NCBI RefSeq assembly: GCF_001434115.1 | Contig: NZ_AZDW01000005.1 | Span: forward strand, 1 to 39,580 | DNA length: 39,580 bases | From: Levilactobacillus zymae DSM 19395 | GTDB taxonomy: Bacteria > Bacillota > Bacilli > Lactobacillales > Lactobacillaceae | Direction of reading: 5' to 3' | Shown here: positions 30,276 to 39,577 of the stretch, in pieces | Layout: each line of letters opens with the position of its first letter | Numbering within the stretch: the stretch's first letter is position 1 | The notes under the pieces: generated by a model | Seen by the model: the letters and a program-made list of their open reading frames with translations, nothing else | What the model was told of the DNA's origin: nothing | The model's database searches: none | Translations under genes and position numbers: made by a program

Positions 30276-31031
30276 ATGGATGAGTTTACACGACGGTATT
30301 TACAGGCGGGGCAGACCAGCGTGGCCAATTTTCTGATCGACCACTTCCAGGAGGTGGGAATGACCACGGACCAGCTGCTGGTCTACCTGCAACTGAAGCG
30401 CTGGTTGGATCGCGGCGATTATCTGCCCGAGAGTGACGTGTTGGCCCAGAACCTGGGGTGGGACACCAAGCGCGTCTTCGAGGTGCTCCACGAGATGATT
30501 GCCCAGAAGCTGATGACCATCAACACGGTGACCAACGACCAGGGGCAAAAGGTCGACCGTTACGACTTTCAGTTGTTAGCGGAGAAGCTAAGTCACGTGC
30601 CGGACGCGGAGGCGACCCAACCGACGCCGACGGTCACCACGGACTCGACGGCGCCGACTAGCGCCACGGCGGCCCAACCGGCGGCCAATCCGGATTCGCA
30701 GCGCGCCACGGTGTTTAACCAGATTGAAACGGAGTTCGGCCAGATGTTATCGCCAATTCAGATGGACACGGTTAGTCAGTGGTTGGACGTCGACCACTAC
30801 AAGCCGGAGTTGATCCAACTGGCGTTGCGTGAGGCAGTCTTAAACCAGGTGTACAACCTGAAATACATGGATCGCATCCTGCTGAACTGGGAGAAAAAGC
30901 ACCTGACCACGGCGGCCCAGGTGCAACGCGAACAGGAACGCCAACACCCGCGGCGCAAGACCGGCGGGGATGGTGGTGCGGGGGATGCGACGATCCCGGA
31001 CGTGCCGATTTTTAAGTTGACGGATGATTAA
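30276..31031 (+). CDS. dnaD: DnaD replication initiation protein
   Basis: This 251-residue protein belongs to the DnaD family, which loads the replicative helicase at oriC and restart sites in Firmicutes. The N-terminal winged-helix domain is at about 15-95 (TTDQLLVYLQLKRWLDRGDYLP, VFEVLHEMIAQKLMTI). A Thr/Ala/Pro-rich linker at about 110-150 follows. The C-terminal DnaD domain includes EFGQMLSPIQMDTVSQWLDVDHYKPELIQLALREAVLN and the YMDRILLNW motif. The start at 30276 is nine bases after AGGAAAGG; ATG at 30267 is directly on the site and less likely. It is the last core gene before the AT-rich CRISPR island. Confidence 0.94.
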   Translation: MDEFTRRYLQAGQTSVANFLIDHFQEVGMTTDQLLVYLQLKRWLDRGDYLPESDVLAQNLGWDTKRVFEVLHEMIAQKLMTINTVTNDQGQKVDRYDFQLLAEKLSHVPDAEATQPTPTVTTDSTAPTSATAAQPAANPDSQRATVFNQIETEFGQMLSPIQMDTVSQWLDVDHYKPELIQLALREAVLNQVYNLKYMDRILLNWEKKHLTTAAQVQREQERQHPRRKTGGDGGAGDATIPDVPIFKLTDD

Positions 31032-31046
31032 TAGATTGTGTGTATG

Positions 31047-31086
31047 GCGACGGTGATGCCCCTTGGGGGTGTGGCGGTCGCTTTTT
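31047..31086 (+). terminator. Intrinsic terminator of dnaD
   Basis: GCGAC/GTCGC forms the base of a long imperfect stem topped by CCCC/GGGG, followed by TTTTTATT. The GC-rich core region ends here. Confidence 0.85.
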
Positions 31087-31307
31087 ATTATGTTCAAAAT
31101 ATTTTCTAAATTTGTATTTTGGTAATTGGGTAATGTAAAGATTGCTTTCATGCCGATATTTATAAGAGATTTTGAGTATGATGAATTAATCATTGAACGA
31201 TGATGGTTGAAAGTTCAAAATAAAAGTACAGGGGAAATATCGTAAGTCCTACATTGTCATCTAGGACCCATATACAGTGCATTACATTGGGAAAGGAGAG
31301 GAGGATA
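31087..31307. other. AT-rich intergenic start of the CRISPR island
   Basis: There is no gene in this stretch. TATGAT at 31177-31182 is a candidate -10 with a poor -35. GATGATGG at 31199-31206 equals the first 8 bases of the short spacer-like segment upstream of cas3. ATGGTTGAAA occurs at 31203-31212 and again at 31600-31609. Confidence 0.4.
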
Positions 31308-31595
31308 GTGGAATTTAATTCGTTAATTGCTGTCTTTATATCGCTTTTAGCGGCAATAGCGTTGGCGTTTTTGAAACCAGTTTTTAAATTGTGGAATAAT
31401 TGGTTTTATCTAACTTTTAGTTCAAAATTAGAGTTGAAAATTAGAAAAAAGAAATTGGCAGAACGAAGGACATTAAAGCAATATAAGGAAGAACTTGATA
31501 AACAATCGAGTACGGAAAAAAGTTTGCAAAACAGCAAAGGAGGTACTTCAGATACTAGTGAAGACGATTTAAATAGCACCAACAGGAAAAATTAA
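31308..31595 (+). CDS. Small single-TM protein of unknown function
   Basis: This 95-residue protein has one N-terminal hydrophobic segment (SLIAVFISLLAAIALAFL, about 5-22). A very basic, helix-prone stretch of about 30 residues follows (LELKIRKKKLAERRTLKQY), then a polar Ser/Thr-rich acidic tail. I recognise no family. The GTG at 31308 is supported by GGAGAGGAGG just upstream; the longer frame to 31254 has no ribosome site. It lies between dnaD and cas3 on the cas strand and shares the island's AT-rich composition, so it may have arrived with the island or be part of its transcript. It could be a membrane accessory protein or an unrelated cargo gene. Confidence 0.55.
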   Translation: MEFNSLIAVFISLLAAIALAFLKPVFKLWNNWFYLTFSSKLELKIRKKKLAERRTLKQYKEELDKQSSTEKSLQNSKGGTSDTSEDDLNSTNRKN

Positions 31596-31640
31596 AAGAA
31601 TGGTTGAAATTTAATGTATGTAACTGAGTGTTCCATGAAA

Positions 31641-31715
31641 TGTTCTTCACATATGTGAAGGTGATCCTGATGATGGCGGTAAATTTTTGTTCCCCACGTA
31701 TGTGGGGGTGTTAGT
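31641..31715 (+). CRISPR. Two CRISPR-repeat-like units around a 19-nt spacer-like segment
   Basis: Two 28-nt units (31641-31668 and 31688-31715) both begin TGTTC and form a 6-bp stem with a 4-nt loop. Unit 1 is CTTCAC-ATAT-GTGAAG followed by the 3' handle GTGATCCT. Unit 2 is CCCCAC-GTAT-GTGGGG followed by the altered handle GTGTTAGT. The stem of unit 1 differs at two C-to-T positions, and both are compensated by G-to-A on the other arm, so pairing is kept. The segment between them is 19 nt (31669-31687), not the 32-33 nt of a type I-E spacer. Unit 2, with a degenerate handle, looks like a terminal repeat. Together they could yield one crRNA-like RNA, 54 bases upstream of cas3. Confidence 0.75.
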
Positions 31716-31769
31716 TTGGAATTGGATGTGGGTATTGCAAATTAATAAATATGGAGGAATTCATATATT

Positions 31770-34505
31770 ATGAAAAAGGAAAATGTACTATGGGCTAAAA
31801 AATGTGTCAAAAAAGATGGTCACCAATATTGGGAGTCGTTGCCTGTACATTTGCTGGACACGCAGAAAGTAATATTTTGGCTGTTAGATACCCAAGTCGA
31901 TGATGGTCTAAAGCAATTTTTAACACAAAAGTTATCATCGAATGAGTTACAAAAACTCGTTAGTTTTTTAGGATTCGCGCATGATATTGGAAAAGCAACC
32001 CCTGCCTTTCAGTTTAAGGCTCAATCTGATTTGGAGCTGATGGCAAAATTAAGTCAGAATGGTTTTTCAGTTCCATCTGAAGAATGGTCATCGTCAAAGG
32101 AATCCCCTCATGCCAGAGCGGGGGAAGCTATCCTACTAGAAAAACATATTCCCAAATCAGTTTGCGCCATTGTTGGATCACATCATGGATTAGCCGATAG
32201 TGTGTTACCCCGCGGACAAATTGCGAAGTACAAAGCTGATTATTGGCAGCGTGACAAGAATCAAGATATTCAAAAGCCTTGGCAGGATGTGCAGCAGGCG
32301 TTGGTAGAGCGAGCAGTTACTTCTGCTGGTTATCATGATATTTCAGAAATACCTGAAGTTGATCAACCAACGGCTATTATTTTAGAGGGGTTGTTGATTA
32401 CTGCCGATTGGTTAGCATCCAATGAGTCTCTCTTTCCGTTGGTTCCGGTTAAAGCCACGATAGACGATAAAGATATAGACGCTCGCTTTAAAAAGGCTTT
32501 GGAGACTCTCGAACAAGAAAAGCAGTGGCATCCCGCCTCAATAAATCTGGAAAATTTGCCATCTTTTTTCCAACAACGCTGGGGATTTGACCCCCATCCG
32601 TTTCAAAAAAAAGTTTTGGCTAGTGTTAGTCAGATGACTGATCCAGGGATGGTCATTATTGAAGATGCTATGGGGCGGGGGAAAACTGAAGCCGCGCTTT
32701 CCGCTGTTGAACTCATTGCCAATAAAACTAAACGAAATAGTGTGTTCATTGGCTTACCTACTCGGGCGACATCGGATGCCATGTTCCACCGGGTCAAGGC
32801 CTGGGCGGCCAAAGTTGGGATTCCAACTATTAAATTATTACATAGCCAAAGCAGCTTTAATGACGAATACACTAGCTTGTTAGATTGGCTCAGTGCTACC
32901 AACGTTAACGCTGATCAAGACGACCGATATGAAGAGCCAGTAATTAACGACTGGTTTAATGGTAAAAAAGCTACTTTAGCCCCCCTGGTGGTAGGGACAG
33001 TGGACTACTTGTTATCTATGGGGTTAAAGAAACGTCACCTTTTCTTACAGCACCTAGCGTTTAGCGACAAAATTGTAGTTCTCGATGAAGTCCATGCATA
33101 CGATACCTACATGACGAGCTATTTAACCAAGGTACTGCGCTGGCTGGGCGCTTACCATGTTCCGGTGATCATGTTGTCGGCGACATTGCCTAAAGAGAAG
33201 CGAAACGAGTTGATGAAGGTTTATCTTGCAGGGAAGTATGGTGAGGACTATCAATTCGATCCAAGTTATCGCGTGCCACGTAATTGGCAAAATGAAGAAC
33301 GTTATCCGTTATTGAGCCTGATTGACGGTCATCAGATTGAACAGGTAACGGATGATAAGCACCCTCAAGATAAGGTTGTTCAGGTTAAGCGATTGGTTCA
33401 AAACGACAAGCAACTAGTCGAGTTGATTCTTGCTAAAATTAGTCAAGGTGGGGTCGCCGGGGTTTTGCTGAACACGGTTCGGCGGACTCAAAACATAGCA
33501 CAATTATTGTTATCACAGATTAAAGACCAGCACGAAAATGTTGAGGTTCTAGTTTTACATTCAGCCTTTATAGCTCCAGGTCGGTTTGAGCGCGAACAAC
33601 GGCTACAAACTCTAATTGGTAAAGCTGGGGACCGACCTAAAAAGTTGGTCGTTTTGGGGACTCAAGTTTTGGAACAATCGTTAGATATCGACTTTGATGT
33701 CCTGTTCACCGATATTGCACCAATGGACTCGCTTTTACAGCGGATTGGTCGGTTACAGCGACACGACCTTAAGCGACCGTTTATGTTAAAACAACCTCAG
33801 GTATTTGTAATCGGTGGCCCAGATTCTAAGGGCTATGGTACGGCTAACGAGATGATTTATGAAAAGTATTATTTGATGCGGACGGATAATTTTCTGCCGG
33901 ATAAGATCAGCCTACCTAAGGACATCTCACCGTTAGTTCAAGAAGTTTATGATTCAGATAAAAAAGTTGAGATGCCTGGAATTAAAACGGCGCTGGTTAG
34001 TCTGCAAGAGTATCAAAAGAAAGAAGACAAGCAAGCCAAAACTTTTCAAATTGATGATCCGTATTTTGATACAGGACTAACGCTTCATGGGTGGCTTGAT
34101 CGCTGGAAACCTGATGCTGACCAAAAAGCTAAGGCGGCCGTACGTGATATTCAAGAAACCGTCGAAGTCATATTACTTCGCAAGCGAGGAAATAATATCT
34201 GCCTATTAGATAAACGGGCGTCGAATATTGACGATATGGCGGATAAGACGATTGCACGGCAGGTCATTCGTTTACCGGTGGCGTTAACTTTTAATAATGG
34301 AAAGATTGAACAAGTGATTAGTCAATTGACGGCTGATACTAAAAAAATCTTTCCAGACCTGCGACAACGGCTATGGTTGAAGGACAGTCTGGTGTTGTTG
34401 CTAAATGAAGACAATACGCGGTCGCTCGAAGGATATCGTTTGGCTTATTCGCAAACTTTCGGTTTAAGTTATGTAAAGGAGGATGATGATGAAACAGACG
34501 TTTAA
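31770..34505 (+). CDS. cas3: Cas3 nuclease-helicase, type I-E
   Basis: This 911-residue protein is the target-degrading nuclease/helicase recruited by Cascade. The N-terminal HD domain carries His27, His71-Asp72 in FAHDIGKA, His114 in SPHARAGEA, SHHG at 137-140 and Asp213 in TADWLASN, a complete metal-binding set. The helicase has MGRGKTEAA (Walker A, GKT 304-306), LDEVHAYD (DEVH 439-442), LSATLP (469-474) and QRIGRLQRH in the C-terminal RecA lobe. A Cas3 C-terminal domain follows. No catalytic residue seems lost, so it should be functional. GGAGG lies about 12 bases before the ATG. Its 3' end overlaps casA by 17 bases. Confidence 0.96.
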   Translation: MKKENVLWAKKCVKKDGHQYWESLPVHLLDTQKVIFWLLDTQVDDGLKQFLTQKLSSNELQKLVSFLGFAHDIGKATPAFQFKAQSDLELMAKLSQNGFSVPSEEWSSSKESPHARAGEAILLEKHIPKSVCAIVGSHHGLADSVLPRGQIAKYKADYWQRDKNQDIQKPWQDVQQALVERAVTSAGYHDISEIPEVDQPTAIILEGLLITADWLASNESLFPLVPVKATIDDKDIDARFKKALETLEQEKQWHPASINLENLPSFFQQRWGFDPHPFQKKVLASVSQMTDPGMVIIEDAMGRGKTEAALSAVELIANKTKRNSVFIGLPTRATSDAMFHRVKAWAAKVGIPTIKLLHSQSSFNDEYTSLLDWLSATNVNADQDDRYEEPVINDWFNGKKATLAPLVVGTVDYLLSMGLKKRHLFLQHLAFSDKIVVLDEVHAYDTYMTSYLTKVLRWLGAYHVPVIMLSATLPKEKRNELMKVYLAGKYGEDYQFDPSYRVPRNWQNEERYPLLSLIDGHQIEQVTDDKHPQDKVVQVKRLVQNDKQLVELILAKISQGGVAGVLLNTVRRTQNIAQLLLSQIKDQHENVEVLVLHSAFIAPGRFEREQRLQTLIGKAGDRPKKLVVLGTQVLEQSLDIDFDVLFTDIAPMDSLLQRIGRLQRHDLKRPFMLKQPQVFVIGGPDSKGYGTANEMIYEKYYLMRTDNFLPDKISLPKDISPLVQEVYDSDKKVEMPGIKTALVSLQEYQKKEDKQAKTFQIDDPYFDTGLTLHGWLDRWKPDADQKAKAAVRDIQETVEVILLRKRGNNICLLDKRASNIDDMADKTIARQVIRLPVALTFNNGKIEQVISQLTADTKKIFPDLRQRLWLKDSLVLLLNEDNTRSLEGYRLAYSQTFGLSYVKEDDDETDV

Positions 34506-36204
34506 TTTAACAACGGCACCGTGGATTCGCGTCTTTAACTCGCGAACTAACCGTGAAGAAGAGGTTTCCTTAATCACGTTGTTTGAACATGCGGCGGATT
34601 ATCGACAACTAGCCGGGGAGATGCGGGCCCAGGATTTAGCAATTTTACGTTTACTGTTGGCGATTTTAACAACAGTTTATTCCCGAGTTGATGTGACGAG
34701 TCAGTCTTATCCTTGGCTCAGGTCAACAACAGAAGTTAAACATCGTTGGTCTAGTCGGGAACAGAATAAGTATTTACTAAAGACTTGGCAGCACCTTTAT
34801 CAAGATGGGCACTTTTCGGAAGCAGTTACGACTTACTTACACCATTGGGCGGATCGATTTGATTTTTTGGGCGAGCATCCGTTTTATCAGGTGACGTTAG
34901 CCGACTATAACGCGTTAGTGATAGATAAAAACCGTATTACGGAAAAGAAACGGGGCGGTCAAGTTGCCATTAGACAGCTTAATCGCCGAATTTCAGAAAG
35001 TGGTAATTCGAAGGCCGTTTTTTCGCCCAAGGCAGAAACGGCTAAGAACGAGGCGGCTTTGGATGAATTAGTTCGCTGGCTAATTATGTATCAAAATTAT
35101 ACTGGCGTAACGGATAAAAGTGTTGTTAAGTCAGCGCAGAAGTTCGCTAAATCGACGGGATGGTTGTACGAACTAAATCCAGTGATTGCTAAGGGAGATT
35201 CTTTGTTTGAGACGTTGATGCTCAATCTAGTTCTAACCAATTACGGCAAAGCTGCCAAGCAATGTCCCGTTTGGGAATATGATACGGTGCAAGCGTATAT
35301 AGCTGACCGACAAGCCCAGCAGGTTCCAGATAACCTAGCAGAATTATATACAACCTGGTCTCGAATCTTGTATATCGAGTGGGATGAAGCCAATCACCCT
35401 ACGATTTTTAGTGCGGGAATTCCGATTTTTAGTAAAAATGAGGTATTTCTTGAGCCCATGACCACTTGGCATATCGCCAAAAGTGGTAATTTGGCTGGAA
35501 AACTTGTGCCGAGTAGGAAGGCGTTAGGGTTTTTAGACAAAGCAATGTGGCGTAATTTCGGTCAATACGTCAGTCTCAACCAAGAGGATACGGTGCACGA
35601 ACCGCGACTGGTGACCTGGTTGCGGCAACTACAGGCCCAAGAGGTTATTCCCTGGGAGAAGCACATAAACTTAATGTCGATTAATTTAGTGCCAGATGAT
35701 AATAAATCTTCGCAGTTGCCGTCCGCAGAAGTAGTAGAGAACATGCAAATTCGAGCAGATGTGTTGTTTGATGATCCGGCTCAATCAAACTATTGGCCAG
35801 CACAAATTGAACAAGCCATTGGTTATGCCCACCAGGTGGGAACTGATTATTATCGTTTTGCGGTTGATATCTGTCATATTCGCAATTTAAAGGCTAAGGT
35901 ATTTGCGCCTAAATTAACGAATCATTTCTATGATCAGCTGAATGAGCCGTTTAACAAATGGTTGGCGGGTCTTACAAATGATGATGAACGTAGTGTTAAA
36001 GTCAATGCTTGGAAACAAAAACTACAAAAAATTGCCCTTAAATCGGCCAATGAATTAATGCAATCAAGTACCCCTAGGGATATGCGCGGGCTTATGGTTG
36101 ATCGAAATGGGAAAAAACAAGCTTTAAACATCTTTACGGCAATGGGCTGGTTGAAATACAACGTGCAGACTAGCCTTTATTCATCAACGAAAAGGAAAGG
36201 ATGA
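34489..36204 (+). CDS. casA: Cse1/CasA (Cas8e), type I-E large Cascade subunit
   Basis: This 571-residue protein is the PAM-recognising large subunit of the type I-E complex. The N-terminal FNLTTAPWIRVFN...EEEVSLITLFEHAADYRQLAGEM is the family hallmark, and LAILRLLLAILTTVYSR follows. A helical bundle forms the last part of about 200 residues. Three tandem ATGs occur at 34483, 34486 and 34489. The third has the best spacing from AAGGAGG (7 bases) and is chosen. It overlaps the end of cas3, which implies coupled translation. No truncation is seen. Confidence 0.94.
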   Translation: MKQTFNLTTAPWIRVFNSRTNREEEVSLITLFEHAADYRQLAGEMRAQDLAILRLLLAILTTVYSRVDVTSQSYPWLRSTTEVKHRWSSREQNKYLLKTWQHLYQDGHFSEAVTTYLHHWADRFDFLGEHPFYQVTLADYNALVIDKNRITEKKRGGQVAIRQLNRRISESGNSKAVFSPKAETAKNEAALDELVRWLIMYQNYTGVTDKSVVKSAQKFAKSTGWLYELNPVIAKGDSLFETLMLNLVLTNYGKAAKQCPVWEYDTVQAYIADRQAQQVPDNLAELYTTWSRILYIEWDEANHPTIFSAGIPIFSKNEVFLEPMTTWHIAKSGNLAGKLVPSRKALGFLDKAMWRNFGQYVSLNQEDTVHEPRLVTWLRQLQAQEVIPWEKHINLMSINLVPDDNKSSQLPSAEVVENMQIRADVLFDDPAQSNYWPAQIEQAIGYAHQVGTDYYRFAVDICHIRNLKAKVFAPKLTNHFYDQLNEPFNKWLAGLTNDDERSVKVNAWKQKLQKIALKSANELMQSSTPRDMRGLMVDRNGKKQALNIFTAMGWLKYNVQTSLYSSTKRKG

Positions 36205-36210
36205 TTAGTA

Positions 36211-36834
36211 ATGCCAAAAACGGTAAGAACCATTACCCAGGGACTAATCAGGATACTATACAACGAAGGTAACTTAAATCGGGCTGTATTAGCTAATTTA
36301 CGAGGGTCGACTAAAATAACTGATACTCGTGCTCAAGCTATCTGGCCGTTGATGTTATCTCGTCTAGAGGACAATATGCTGAGTTATACGGGACAACCGA
36401 CGAAGCAGGAAATAGCCATCTATTCGGCGTTGCACTTCTATGCCCTTTGTCAGCAAGGTAACGACTATTTGGTTTATAGCCCAGCGCCTAAAAAAGGGTC
36501 AGATTCAGATCAATCAAAAGAAGGAATGCCCTTGTTCAAGGCGCTCGCAGCGTTACGAGCTAATGAAGATAATCGAGATGGTCTTGATCGACGCGTTGAA
36601 AACCTGTTAGCATTAACCGAAATTTCCGGAACAGTGAACGGTTTATCCCATTTAATCGGAATTTTAAAGGCTAGAAGCGAATCAGAGTTGAAAGTTGATT
36701 TTGGTCAGATTGCCCAAGATCTTTATGATGCTCAGCGGAACTATCAGCGGTTTGCGCAAATTCGGTTACTTTGGGGACAGCAGTATTTTTGGGGAAATTA
36801 CTTGGAAAGTCAATCAGAAGGGAAAGAAAACTAA
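36211..36834 (+). CDS. casB: Cse2/CasB (Cas11e), type I-E small Cascade subunit
   Basis: This 207-residue, mostly helical protein forms the small-subunit dimer along the belly of Cascade and stabilises the R-loop. Recognisable parts are the N-terminal RAVLANLRGSTKITDTRAQAIWPLMLSRL and the central TKQEIAIYSALHFYALCQQGN, followed by the PLFKALAALR and RRVENLLAL helices. It starts 6 bases after casA with AAAGGATG upstream. Its stop TAATG overlaps the cas7 start. Confidence 0.93.
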   Translation: MPKTVRTITQGLIRILYNEGNLNRAVLANLRGSTKITDTRAQAIWPLMLSRLEDNMLSYTGQPTKQEIAIYSALHFYALCQQGNDYLVYSPAPKKGSDSDQSKEGMPLFKALAALRANEDNRDGLDRRVENLLALTEISGTVNGLSHLIGILKARSESELKVDFGQIAQDLYDAQRNYQRFAQIRLLWGQQYFWGNYLESQSEGKEN

Positions 36835-37934
36835 TGACGAATAATTTGTATATTGATATCAACGTTCTACAAACACTACCACCTTCGAATATTAATCGGG
36901 ATGATATTGGGTCACCTAAAAAGGCCCAATATGGTGGCGTGACTCGCGCACGAGTTTCTTCTCAAAGCTGGAAGCGAGCGGTTCGTAAGGCTTTTAAAGC
37001 AGAAAAGCTGGAGGTGGCGACGCGAACTAAAGAAGTCGCAAAGCTATTGGCAGAGCAATTAAAAATGGTACAGGCCGAATTAAGCCAAGAAGATGCAATG
37101 AAGCAGGCATTACAAATTTTAAAGACAGTCGGTATCAAGATGGATAAGAAGGATAAGCAGAAAACTGCAACACTATTGATGGTCAGCCCTGGTCAACTCA
37201 ATAAGATTGTCCAATACATTACCCAACACGGTTTAGAAGATAAAGAGACCGAAAAAGAAATTAAGAACATTCTGAAAGGGAATCAGTCCCTAGATTTGGC
37301 ATTATTTGGTCGAATGGTAGCGGATGATCCAAGTTTAAACGTTGAGGGGTCAACGCAAGTGGCACACGCTATCTCGACGCACGCAATTGAACCGGAATTT
37401 GATTACTTTACGGCACTAGATGATGAACATTTGGATGATGCAGGCGCTGCCATGATTGGCAGTACGGAGTTTAATTCGTCTACATTGTATCGGTATGCCA
37501 ATGTTAATATGCGGGAGTTGGCGCAAAATTTAGGTGCTGAAGATGCAATTAAGGGAGCCGTGACTTTTATTAAAGATTTTCTTTTAGCCATGCCTTCTGG
37601 GAAACAAAATAGTTTTGCCAACCGTACCCGTCCTAACTATGTCATGGTTACGTTACGAGCAGATACGCCCCTTAGTTTAGTTTCTGCGTTTGAGGAGCCA
37701 GTTGAATCCGATAATGGTTACGTTGAGGCGTCCATTAAAGCCTTAGAAGAAGAGTATCAGGCCACCCTCAAAATGGGGATGATGCAACCTGTTGGAAACT
37801 ACATTTTGAGTACTCGTCATTCGGAGCTAACTGCTAAAAAAGGGAACCAGGTTATGACTGATTTACCACAGCTACTTGATCAGGTTACCCAGGCATTGAC
37901 GGGGGCGATTAAGGATGAAGACACTAACGCTTAA
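36834..37934 (+). CDS. cas7: Cas7 (Cse4/CasC), type I-E Cascade backbone
   Basis: This 366-residue RAMP-family protein forms the six-fold crRNA-binding backbone of the complex. The N-terminus TNNLYIDINVLQTLPPSNINRDDIGSPKKAQYGGVTRARVSSQSWKRAVR is the typical Cas7e start, with a basic thumb region. ALFGRMVADDPSLNVEGSTQVAHAISTHAIEPEFDYFTALDD and SKQNSFANRTRP-like SGKQNSFANRTRPNYV are conserved. The ATG at 36834 overlaps the casB stop as TAATG, after AGAAGGGAAAG. A longer frame extending into casB is spurious. Confidence 0.95.
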   Translation: MTNNLYIDINVLQTLPPSNINRDDIGSPKKAQYGGVTRARVSSQSWKRAVRKAFKAEKLEVATRTKEVAKLLAEQLKMVQAELSQEDAMKQALQILKTVGIKMDKKDKQKTATLLMVSPGQLNKIVQYITQHGLEDKETEKEIKNILKGNQSLDLALFGRMVADDPSLNVEGSTQVAHAISTHAIEPEFDYFTALDDEHLDDAGAAMIGSTEFNSSTLYRYANVNMRELAQNLGAEDAIKGAVTFIKDFLLAMPSGKQNSFANRTRPNYVMVTLRADTPLSLVSAFEEPVESDNGYVEASIKALEEEYQATLKMGMMQPVGNYILSTRHSELTAKKGNQVMTDLPQLLDQVTQALTGAIKDEDTNA

Positions 37935-38628
37935 ATTAACGGGTCCCTTGCAATCGTATGGGAATGAAGCCGATTTTCTCCTACGAACTACCGGGGGATA
38001 CCCATCAAAAAGTGCCGTAATTGGATTGATTGCTGCCGCTCTGGGTTATCAGCGAACGGACACGCGAATTGTGGCGTTGAATGATTTAAAATTTGCGGTG
38101 CGAGTCGACCAACCAGGATCGATTATGACGGAATTTCAGACAGTTGAGGTTCAGGAAACTTACAGTCAAAAAAAGGCAAAGCGAAAAGTGACTCATCGTG
38201 ATAATCTGCAGGATGCTTTATTTATGGTAGCGCTGGGGAGTTCTGATGACGAGTTGCTAAATCGAATCAAATTTGCGTTACATCATCCTAAGTTTCAACT
38301 TTTCTTGGGACGGCGCGCAAACGTTATTGCGGGATACCTGGAGGTCAATGAGTATCCTAATGAAGATCCGGTAACTGTCCTTATGAATTTGGATTGGCAA
38401 GCAGCCGCGTGGTATAAAAAGCGACAACGATGGCAACACGCTGATGATAAAAAATTCACTGTCACATTGGCCGCCGATGCGGATTTATTACCACATCAAT
38501 CGGGTCAAGATTTCTTGGTGAAGGACCATGTACGATCGTTTTCGCAAATGGATCGGCGACATGCCTACCGGGCAGTGGTTGAAAAAAGTATCGAGTTAGA
38601 TACTGTGGCTCAGCAAAAAGAAAATTAA
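37915..38628 (+). CDS. cas5: Cas5 (CasD), type I-E Cascade subunit
   Basis: This 237-residue RAMP protein binds the 5' handle of the crRNA at the base of Cascade. The N-terminal KTLTLKLTGPLQSYGNEADFLLRTTGGYPSKSAVIGLIAAALGY is the Cas5e signature. RRAYRAVVEKS-like HAYRAVVEKSIEL lies near the C-terminus. The start at 37915 lies inside the end of cas7, a 20-base overlap, as is common in this operon type. The GATTAAGG before the ATG is the probable ribosome site. Confidence 0.93.
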   Translation: MKTLTLKLTGPLQSYGNEADFLLRTTGGYPSKSAVIGLIAAALGYQRTDTRIVALNDLKFAVRVDQPGSIMTEFQTVEVQETYSQKKAKRKVTHRDNLQDALFMVALGSSDDELLNRIKFALHHPKFQLFLGRRANVIAGYLEVNEYPNEDPVTVLMNLDWQAAAWYKKRQRWQHADDKKFTVTLAADADLLPHQSGQDFLVKDHVRSFSQMDRRHAYRAVVEKSIELDTVAQQKEN

Positions 38629-38648
38629 TTTTTAAGAAAGGAGTCGCT

Positions 38649-39323
38649 ATGTACTTATCCAGAGTTGTAATCAATCGTTATAGTCCAGAGAATTTTAAAA
38701 CGCTGACCCACTTGGGTGCCTATCATGATTGGGTGGAGCGCAGCTTTCCAGCTGAATTTCAGGCGGGAATTCGTCCACGGCACCTATGGCGAATTGATTC
38801 ATTAGCCAATAAGCAATACCTAGTCGTTTTAAGTGAGACGGCACCGGATTTACATGCGTTAGAAGCCTATGGTGTACCGGAAACGGCGGTGTCAAAGTCA
38901 TATGATCACTTTTTGGACCAACTACAGGTGGGACAAGTTTTACGGTTTAAATTAACGGCTAATCCTACTCACCGGGTACCCCAAGCGGGACACAAAACGG
39001 GGAAAGTTTACCCGCACGTAACGGCAGCCCAACAACGGCAATGGTTAATCAAGCGAGCAGAAAGTGCTGGGTTTCAGCTATTGAAATTGCCAGCGGACGA
39101 TTACTTTGAGGAGCCAGACTACGATTTTAAAATCATCAATCGTGATTGGCCAATTCTCTTCCGTAAGCCGGGACATGGACATCGCGTGAAACTCAGCCGC
39201 GTAACGTTTGAGGGCATGCTAAAGATTAATGATTTAGATGCATTCAAACACACCTTAACGCAGGGAATTGGGCGTGAAAAAGCCTTTGGCATGGGACTCA
39301 TGACGGTAGTTCCTCAGAGATAG
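38649..39323 (+). CDS. cas6e: Cas6e (CasE), crRNA-processing endoribonuclease
   Basis: This 224-residue RAMP nuclease cuts pre-crRNA at the base of the repeat stem. LSRVVINRY starts the first ferredoxin fold. His26 in GAYHDWVERSFP sits at the usual catalytic position. The C-terminal GIGREKAFGMGLMTVVP is the Gly-rich RNA-binding loop. It follows cas5 by 20 bases after AAGAAAGGAG. The protein looks intact, so the flanking repeat-like hairpins could in principle be processed. It is the last cas gene in the window; the usual cas1 does not follow. Confidence 0.95.
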   Translation: MYLSRVVINRYSPENFKTLTHLGAYHDWVERSFPAEFQAGIRPRHLWRIDSLANKQYLVVLSETAPDLHALEAYGVPETAVSKSYDHFLDQLQVGQVLRFKLTANPTHRVPQAGHKTGKVYPHVTAAQQRQWLIKRAESAGFQLLKLPADDYFEEPDYDFKIINRDWPILFRKPGHGHRVKLSRVTFEGMLKINDLDAFKHTLTQGIGREKAFGMGLMTVVPQR

Positions 39324-39501: not shown

Positions 39502-39577
39502 TGTTCCCCATATATGTGGGGGTGATTCTAAAAATACTAAGCTTAGAGGCATAGAAGTTACCCGACGGGGTGCTCCT
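39502..39577 (+). CRISPR. CRISPR-repeat-like unit followed by a decayed second unit
   Basis: The unit at 39502-39529 starts TGTTC, has the stem CCCCAT-ATAT-GTGGGG (one U-G pair) and ends GTGATTCT, one base from the handle GTGATCCT of the unit at 31641. A 27-nt spacer-like segment follows (39530-39556). At 39557-39577, GTTACCCGACG plus GGGGTGCTCCT reads as the same repeat with about six stem-loop bases lost. The window ends three bases later, so a longer array beyond it cannot be excluded. Confidence 0.55.

Follow-up and report, generated by a model that had tools for sequence, protein, structure and literature searches.

Upstream of the type I-E cas3 gene of Levilactobacillus zymae DSM 19395, two CRISPR repeat-like units enclose a short guide-like segment whose seed matches an AAC-flanked site in a nearby promoter region, and because the guide fits that region the element probably serves as a gene switch that employs the CRISPR machinery. 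The reading that we favour, with moderate confidence, is that a CreR/CreA-like guide RNA takes Cascade to the region before a 95-codon gene and represses that gene, perhaps together with the cas genes. An initial annotation of this DNA had suggested that a crRNA-like RNA regulates the cas operon or a linked gene, and this suggestion is largely supported, on sequence evidence, by a seed match at eight of eight bases, an AAC PAM and comparable elements at 12 other loci, with the qualification that the predicted target precedes the 95-codon gene and does not lie right at cas3.

The element and its genomic setting

The window, by which we mean the whole 39,580-nt stretch that was analysed, makes up contig C43 of a genome of 2.7 Mb, and it carries a type I-E cas3-Cascade operon at 31770-39323 within a stretch of 34-45% GC that follows one of 54-63% GC (Table 1). 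Among the matches listed, no Cas3 of a relative exceeds 51% identity to that of the window, and no relative near enough for guide and target to be compared jointly turned up. No I-E cas1 was found in the window or in the whole genome; the sole Cas1 match of the genome (PF01867) belongs to a cas9-cas1-cas2-csn2 locus on a different contig (L132), and the cas1 frame of that locus is split in two. The impression from a strict 28-mer search that the genome contains no I-E array was overturned by a relaxed search, which placed repeats on eight further contigs, six of which carry three or more units. A lone repeat also stands at 39502-39529, downstream of cas6e; the contig ends 51 bases further on, and the place where a second repeat would be expected holds none.

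Table 1. Positions of the features of the element, its predicted target region and the cas operon in the window
Feature	Position	Strand	Remarks
Protospacer-flanking PAM AAC (predicted target)	31196-31198	+	same PAM as phage LBR48 protospacer
Predicted protospacer GATGATGGTTGAAAGTTCA	31199-31217	+	13/19 bases match guide, positions 1-8 all
Candidate promoter at target: TTGAAC (31193-31198), 17 nt, CAAAAT (31216-31221)	31193-31221	+	by eye
Orphan gene, GTG start, 95 aa	31308-31595	+	Shine-Dalgarno-like AAGGAGAGGAGG at 31293-31304
Promoter-like site inside small gene: TTGAAA, 18 nt, AATAAT	31371-31400	+	scan; 10/12
Repeat-like unit 1 (PsiR1) TGTTCTTCACATATGTGAAGGTGATCCT	31641-31668	+	handle GTGATCCT at 31661-31668
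Spacer-like guide (PsiS), 19 nt, GATGATGGCGGTAAATTTT	31669-31687	+
Repeat-like unit 2 (PsiR2) TGTTCCCCACGTATGTGGGGGTGTTAGT	31688-31715	+	canonical stem, degenerate handle GTGTTAGT
cas3 (Cas3e)	31770-34505	+	profile matches
Cascade: cas8e (cse1), cas11e (cse2), cas7e, cas5e, cas6e	34483-39323	+	profile matches

The initial annotation had described two 28-nt units around a 19-nt segment, 54 bases from cas3, and all of these coordinates were confirmed. Relative to TATTCCCCACATGTGTGGGGGTGATTCT, unit 1 differs at 7 of 28 bases and unit 2 at 6 of 28. The resemblance of the units to repeats exceeds chance: a relaxed search with a 22-mer and up to three mismatches returned 68 matches in the genome, of which unit 2 is one, and none with a backward control. 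Unit 1 retains its stem through two compensated pairs (C6-G19 to U-A and C7-G18 to U-A), and unit 2 combines the canonical stem with a degenerate handle, both as had been described. The 8-nt handle attributed to unit 1 is likewise present, but it is one base off most array repeats shown of the same genome, since these end in GTGATTC[C/T]. The element has a period of 47 nt, which sets it apart from the genome's own arrays with their mostly 61-nt period, and its 19-nt guide departs from the spacers of about 33 nt that an ordinary array end would carry.

Stem covariation, a comparison that the annotation had called for, was borne out in a set of 16 repeat-like units, taken from the window and from ten relatives. 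All 96 cells of the six-pair stem are paired, and four of the six pairs have changed on both sides, an outcome reached by 5 of 500 shuffles, in a set whose units were picked to fit one 28-nt frame and are thereby biased towards structure. In this same set, which is without units 1 of L026, L041, L044, L056, L064, L065, L074 and L105 and units 2 of L023, L026, L041 and L056, the covariation score is higher than in all 500 shuffles and all slid versions, and the number of pair types in the stem is unremarkable (266 of 500 shuffles). The units 1 of some relatives have another loop or a shifted stem, and those of L064 and L105 showed no clean stem. The folding of the 106-nt region is not unusual (z = -1.33, with 17 of 200 shuffles equally good), and both hairpins are present in its minimum-free-energy structure.

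The predicted target region

Both strands of positions 31032-31770 (739 nt) were searched for guide bases 1-8 next to AA at PAM positions -3 and -2, and one site fits, AAC followed by GATGATGGTTGAAAGTTCA at 31196-31217, which mismatches the guide at positions 9, 10, 12, 15, 18 and 19. This site lies 470 nt upstream of the guide, 109 nt before the small gene and 571 nt from cas3. A match as good as the seed match at 31199-31206 arose in this region for 107 of 20000 shuffled guides, and equally good matches for 40 of 7532 fake guides drawn from the cas genes and 7 of 720 drawn from the 739-nt region itself, so that the chance of a local seed and PAM match is about 0.5-1%. Across the whole window there are nine 8/8 matches regardless of PAM, and the sole one with an AA PAM is that at 31199; a target inside cas3 was rejected because the 8-nt match at 31899-31906 is flanked by GTC and not by an AA PAM.

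The PAM AAC is credible for this system, judging from one array spacer of the same genome with a match to Lactobacillus phage LBR48 at 33 of 33 bases. This match begins with the last base of the repeat and is preceded by AA, which gives the PAM AAC, and the evidence amounts to a single protospacer, present in two records of one phage. As to how much pairing Cascade needs, work on the E. coli I-E complex reports seed and PAM binding with as few as 5 bp and also seed-only off-target binding with no observed transcriptional effect (PMC5904413). Haloarchaeal CreA is described as requiring guide positions 1-5 and 7-11 (PMC8501985); the guide of the window matches at 1-8 and 11 and mismatches at 9 and 10.

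Under the reading that we favour, Cas6e would cut the transcript of the element 3' of both stems and thereby release a 47-nt RNA (31661-31707) made up of the handle GTGATCCT, the 19-nt guide and a terminal hairpin. Cascade loaded with this RNA would bind the AAC-flanked site at 31199-31217 via the 8-base seed, where pairing would be insufficient for cleavage, and the bound complex would block transcription from the promoter region ahead of the 95-codon gene. The transcript may extend across the element to take in cas3 and the Cascade genes, in which case an autorepression loop would arise that is released when Cascade is scarce or occupied. The least certain part of this proposal is that the cas genes would share the repressed promoter. 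The candidate promoter at the target is weak, as it has 8 of 12 consensus bases and is absent from the list given by a promoter scan. That scan, which covered 31000-31900 on both strands, returned five promoter-like sites against 3.5 expected in shuffles; four are on the plus strand, namely the best one inside the small gene, one within the element and two across the cas3 start. With these sites, a single transcript from the target region to cas3 is possible, and so is a separate start for the element and cas3; the site inside the small gene could drive both apart from the target region.

The orphan gene and known Cascade-guided switches

The 95-codon gene sits between the predicted target and the element. 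When the intergenic stretch was shuffled with dinucleotides preserved (n = 2000), an open reading frame of at least 95 codons appeared in 14 shuffles and the full 113-codon frame in 2. The predicted protein has a hydrophobic N-terminal part and a charged tail, and an alignment-free fold consists of one helix spanning residues 3-77 (mean pLDDT 77, pTM 0.27). It matched no Pfam and no PADLOC family, its matches in PHROGs were weak and of unknown function (E 0.023 and 0.084), no relative except itself was found in 118 genomes or in the protein collection, and tblastn found none in plasmids or phages; blastn of the region against plasmids gave nothing useful. Its cluster in the protein collection comprises 2 member sequences on 4 contigs. 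The gene contains codons that are rare among the counted host genes, though not directly after its start.

A special case of the mechanism outlined above would be an addiction module of the CreTA/CrePA kind, in which the guide represses the 95-codon gene as a toxin, and loss or inhibition of Cascade would release the toxin and stop growth. We hold this to be possible and rather unlikely. It would agree with a target that precedes the 95-codon gene and not cas3, and with the character of that gene, an orphan whose ribosome-binding site is good and whose product has a hydrophobic N-terminal part. It also has described counterparts: the creTA module of Halobacterium hubeiense lies directly upstream of the cas operon with its target upstream of creT, much as the window's predicted target lies upstream of its small gene (PMC8501985), and the type I-E CreTA of Citrobacter rodentium includes a translated open reading frame without homologues (PMC12055562). 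Weighing against it are the lack of relatives of the protein in the genomes, protein collection, plasmids and phages searched and the absence of such a gene between target and guide in all 13 tabulated relatives that bear the element, as judged by a filter for at least 35 codons and a Shine-Dalgarno-like motif before the longest start, from which it follows that the element in this clade does not need one; that the target of the window is separated from its guide by a gene, unlike in these relatives, weighs against the favoured reading too. Quite unlikely, in our estimation, is the bolder proposal that one promoter drives a membrane toxin, the guide RNA and all Cascade genes and that 19-22-nt guides are a separate recurring regulatory type in Lactobacillaceae I-E systems; with a single promoter and a toxin, a fall in free Cascade would raise Cas production and toxin together.

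Comparison with described systems places the element between several of them. CreR RNAs are reported as Cas-regulating RNAs in types I-B, I-E and V-A (Liu et al. 2023, as cited in PMC13131331) and are presented in a review as generally uncoupled from a toxin gene (PMC12737573). As described for CreR, the window has a crRNA-like unit linked to cas genes, and its guide partially matches a candidate promoter region that may drive the cas genes: a unit with stem and handle stands outside any array next to the cas operon, and its guide has the 8-nt seed match with an AAC PAM at 31199. It differs from CreR in that the predicted target precedes an extra small gene, within which a promoter-like site intervenes before the distant cas3, and in that the guide has 19 nt only.

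Haloarchaeal creA is described as having two divergent repeats, of which the first keeps the Cas5-binding handle and diverges elsewhere and the second loses the handle (PMC9458426), and in the window, too, the handle is retained in unit 1 and lost in unit 2. The CreTA systems of Halobacterium hubeiense and Haloarcula hispanica differ from that of the window in being archaeal, of type I-B and dependent, as reported, on a seed at positions 1-5 and 7-11 (PMC8501985), and whereas CreT is described as sequestering a rare tRNA, the window gene is a putative toxin at most. Closer in type is the C. rodentium system, which as described is of type I-E, has an orphan small ORF that needs translation and has a partial target by an I-E PAM at the promoter; unlike the arrangement in the window, it lies between cas3 and casA, its antitoxin is on the opposite strand and its ORF is 96 bp long (PMC12055562). 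The toxicity of that module has been experimentally demonstrated according to the same report, whereas that of the window gene is hypothetical. In CrePA (Shu et al., per PMC12737573), Cascade and a crRNA-like RNA repress a protein gene, as we propose here, but CreP is said in that review typically to carry a KilA-N domain, which the window protein, having no Pfam domain, does not show.

Recurrence upstream of cas3 in Lactobacillaceae

To place the element among its relatives, we assembled 121 cas3 loci, consisting of 25 loci, 16 further ones (best 30 per search; 73 of 397 genomes matched) and the best 80 of 576 named contigs. An exact 300-nt test left 114 distinct loci, and those from Lactobacillaceae with at least 250 bases upstream of cas3 were kept, giving 61 regions with the window included; near-duplicates (L014/L071, L040/L053 and L041/L044) remain among them, so the counts are not fully independent. 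Matches were scored as runs over guide positions 1-5, 7-11 and 13 on, with an AA flank required, and since targets were sought only from -700 to +60 of cas3, all tabulated targets are local by construction.

Among guides behind a TGATYC handle, 15 of 98 reach an AA-flanked run of at least 7 (14 if the window is set aside), compared with 68 of 2440 random positions, and runs of at least 10 occur in 10 of 98 such guides compared with 8 of 2440 random positions. The 12 hits with a run of at least 8 are all flanked by AAC or AAT, although the search asked for AA alone. Twelve other Lactobacillaceae I-E loci, two of them near-duplicates, have a two-unit element together with an AAY-flanked local match with a run of at least 8. 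The run of the window guide, at 7 counted positions and ending at base 9, is shorter than those of the 12 other hits, which weighs against the favoured reading. The run-7 hits of L005 and L068 look like chance. Within the first 15 positions, the guide of Lentilactobacillus parafarraginis (L074) mismatches at 6 and 12 and nowhere else, and these are the guide positions that are reported as flipped out. Of the 14 tabulated elements, 8 have their predicted target between themselves and cas3, and the other 6, including the window, have it on their upstream side; L017 was tabulated for 21 of 24 matching bases despite a run of 5. In Lactiplantibacillus modestisalitolerans (L055, about -262 to -140 from the cas3 match) two units stand in tandem, and both guides have AA-flanked local matches, the second match or guide being palindromic.

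A further list, of handle units with a repeat-like unit behind them, was made regardless of targets, with thresholds set after the elements were seen. In it, all seven solo pairs whose guides measure 19-22 nt (the window, L027, L041, L044, L056, L065 and L074, with L041 and L044 alike) reach an AA-flanked run of at least 7, the six from outside the window having 21-22-nt guides and AAY-flanked local matches. The same holds for 6 of 13 solo pairs with 33-34-nt guides and for none of 56 in-array 33-nt guides; a short spacing at the array end of L025 has no local match. By another criterion, local matches were found for 0 of 230 array-internal spacers and 7 of 69 remaining units, in a screen that skipped elements with a degenerate unit 1, counted some false stretches as isolated and chose another unit of L026.

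Two further explanations have to be set against these results. One is that the RNA is an active crRNA-like RNA with a different target and that the local seed match is chance, for which the best candidate is a match past a tRNA-Lys gene (C41:10964; L161 2465-2485), AAC GATGATGGCGGT, which at 12 of 12 guide bases is longer than the local match. We regard this as very unlikely, as that match lies in an apparent terminator stem after the tRNA-Lys gene, where repression is hard to envisage, a second 12-nt match is flanked by AAG and lies inside clpX, and the guide has a codon-like, common pattern that gives 45 matches with up to three mismatches against 13 for a backward control. The other, which is highly doubtful and which the initial annotation had itself raised against its proposal, is that the element is what remains of a lost array, with its last repeats as the units and a shortened, functionless relic spacer as the guide: many relatives do have an array with degenerate last repeats upstream of cas3, where the window has no array, and the lone repeat at 39502 is an instance of a stray one, but the stem is retained through paired changes and the handle is kept, the 19-nt guide resembles the 21-22-nt guides of the locally matching solo pairs, and it has a seed match with a PAM of the kind that the in-array guides of the surveyed loci lack.

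Regulatory crRNA-like switches are already known, and what is new in the element that we favour as a guide for Cascade is the orphan gene between target and element together with a recurring class of short guides; in the open-licence literature, judged by title or the start of the abstract, we found no paper on such elements in lactobacilli among those listed. Native Cascade serves as an editing tool in lactobacilli, and hidden Cascade-repressed genes and self-limiting cas promoters would therefore matter there. For the short-guide class, regulation without cleavage could be tested by simple reporters. If our reading is true, a type I-E system of a lactic acid bacterium would include a Cascade-regulated small protein, and guides of 19-22 nt outside arrays would form a class that recurs upstream of cas3 in several genera.
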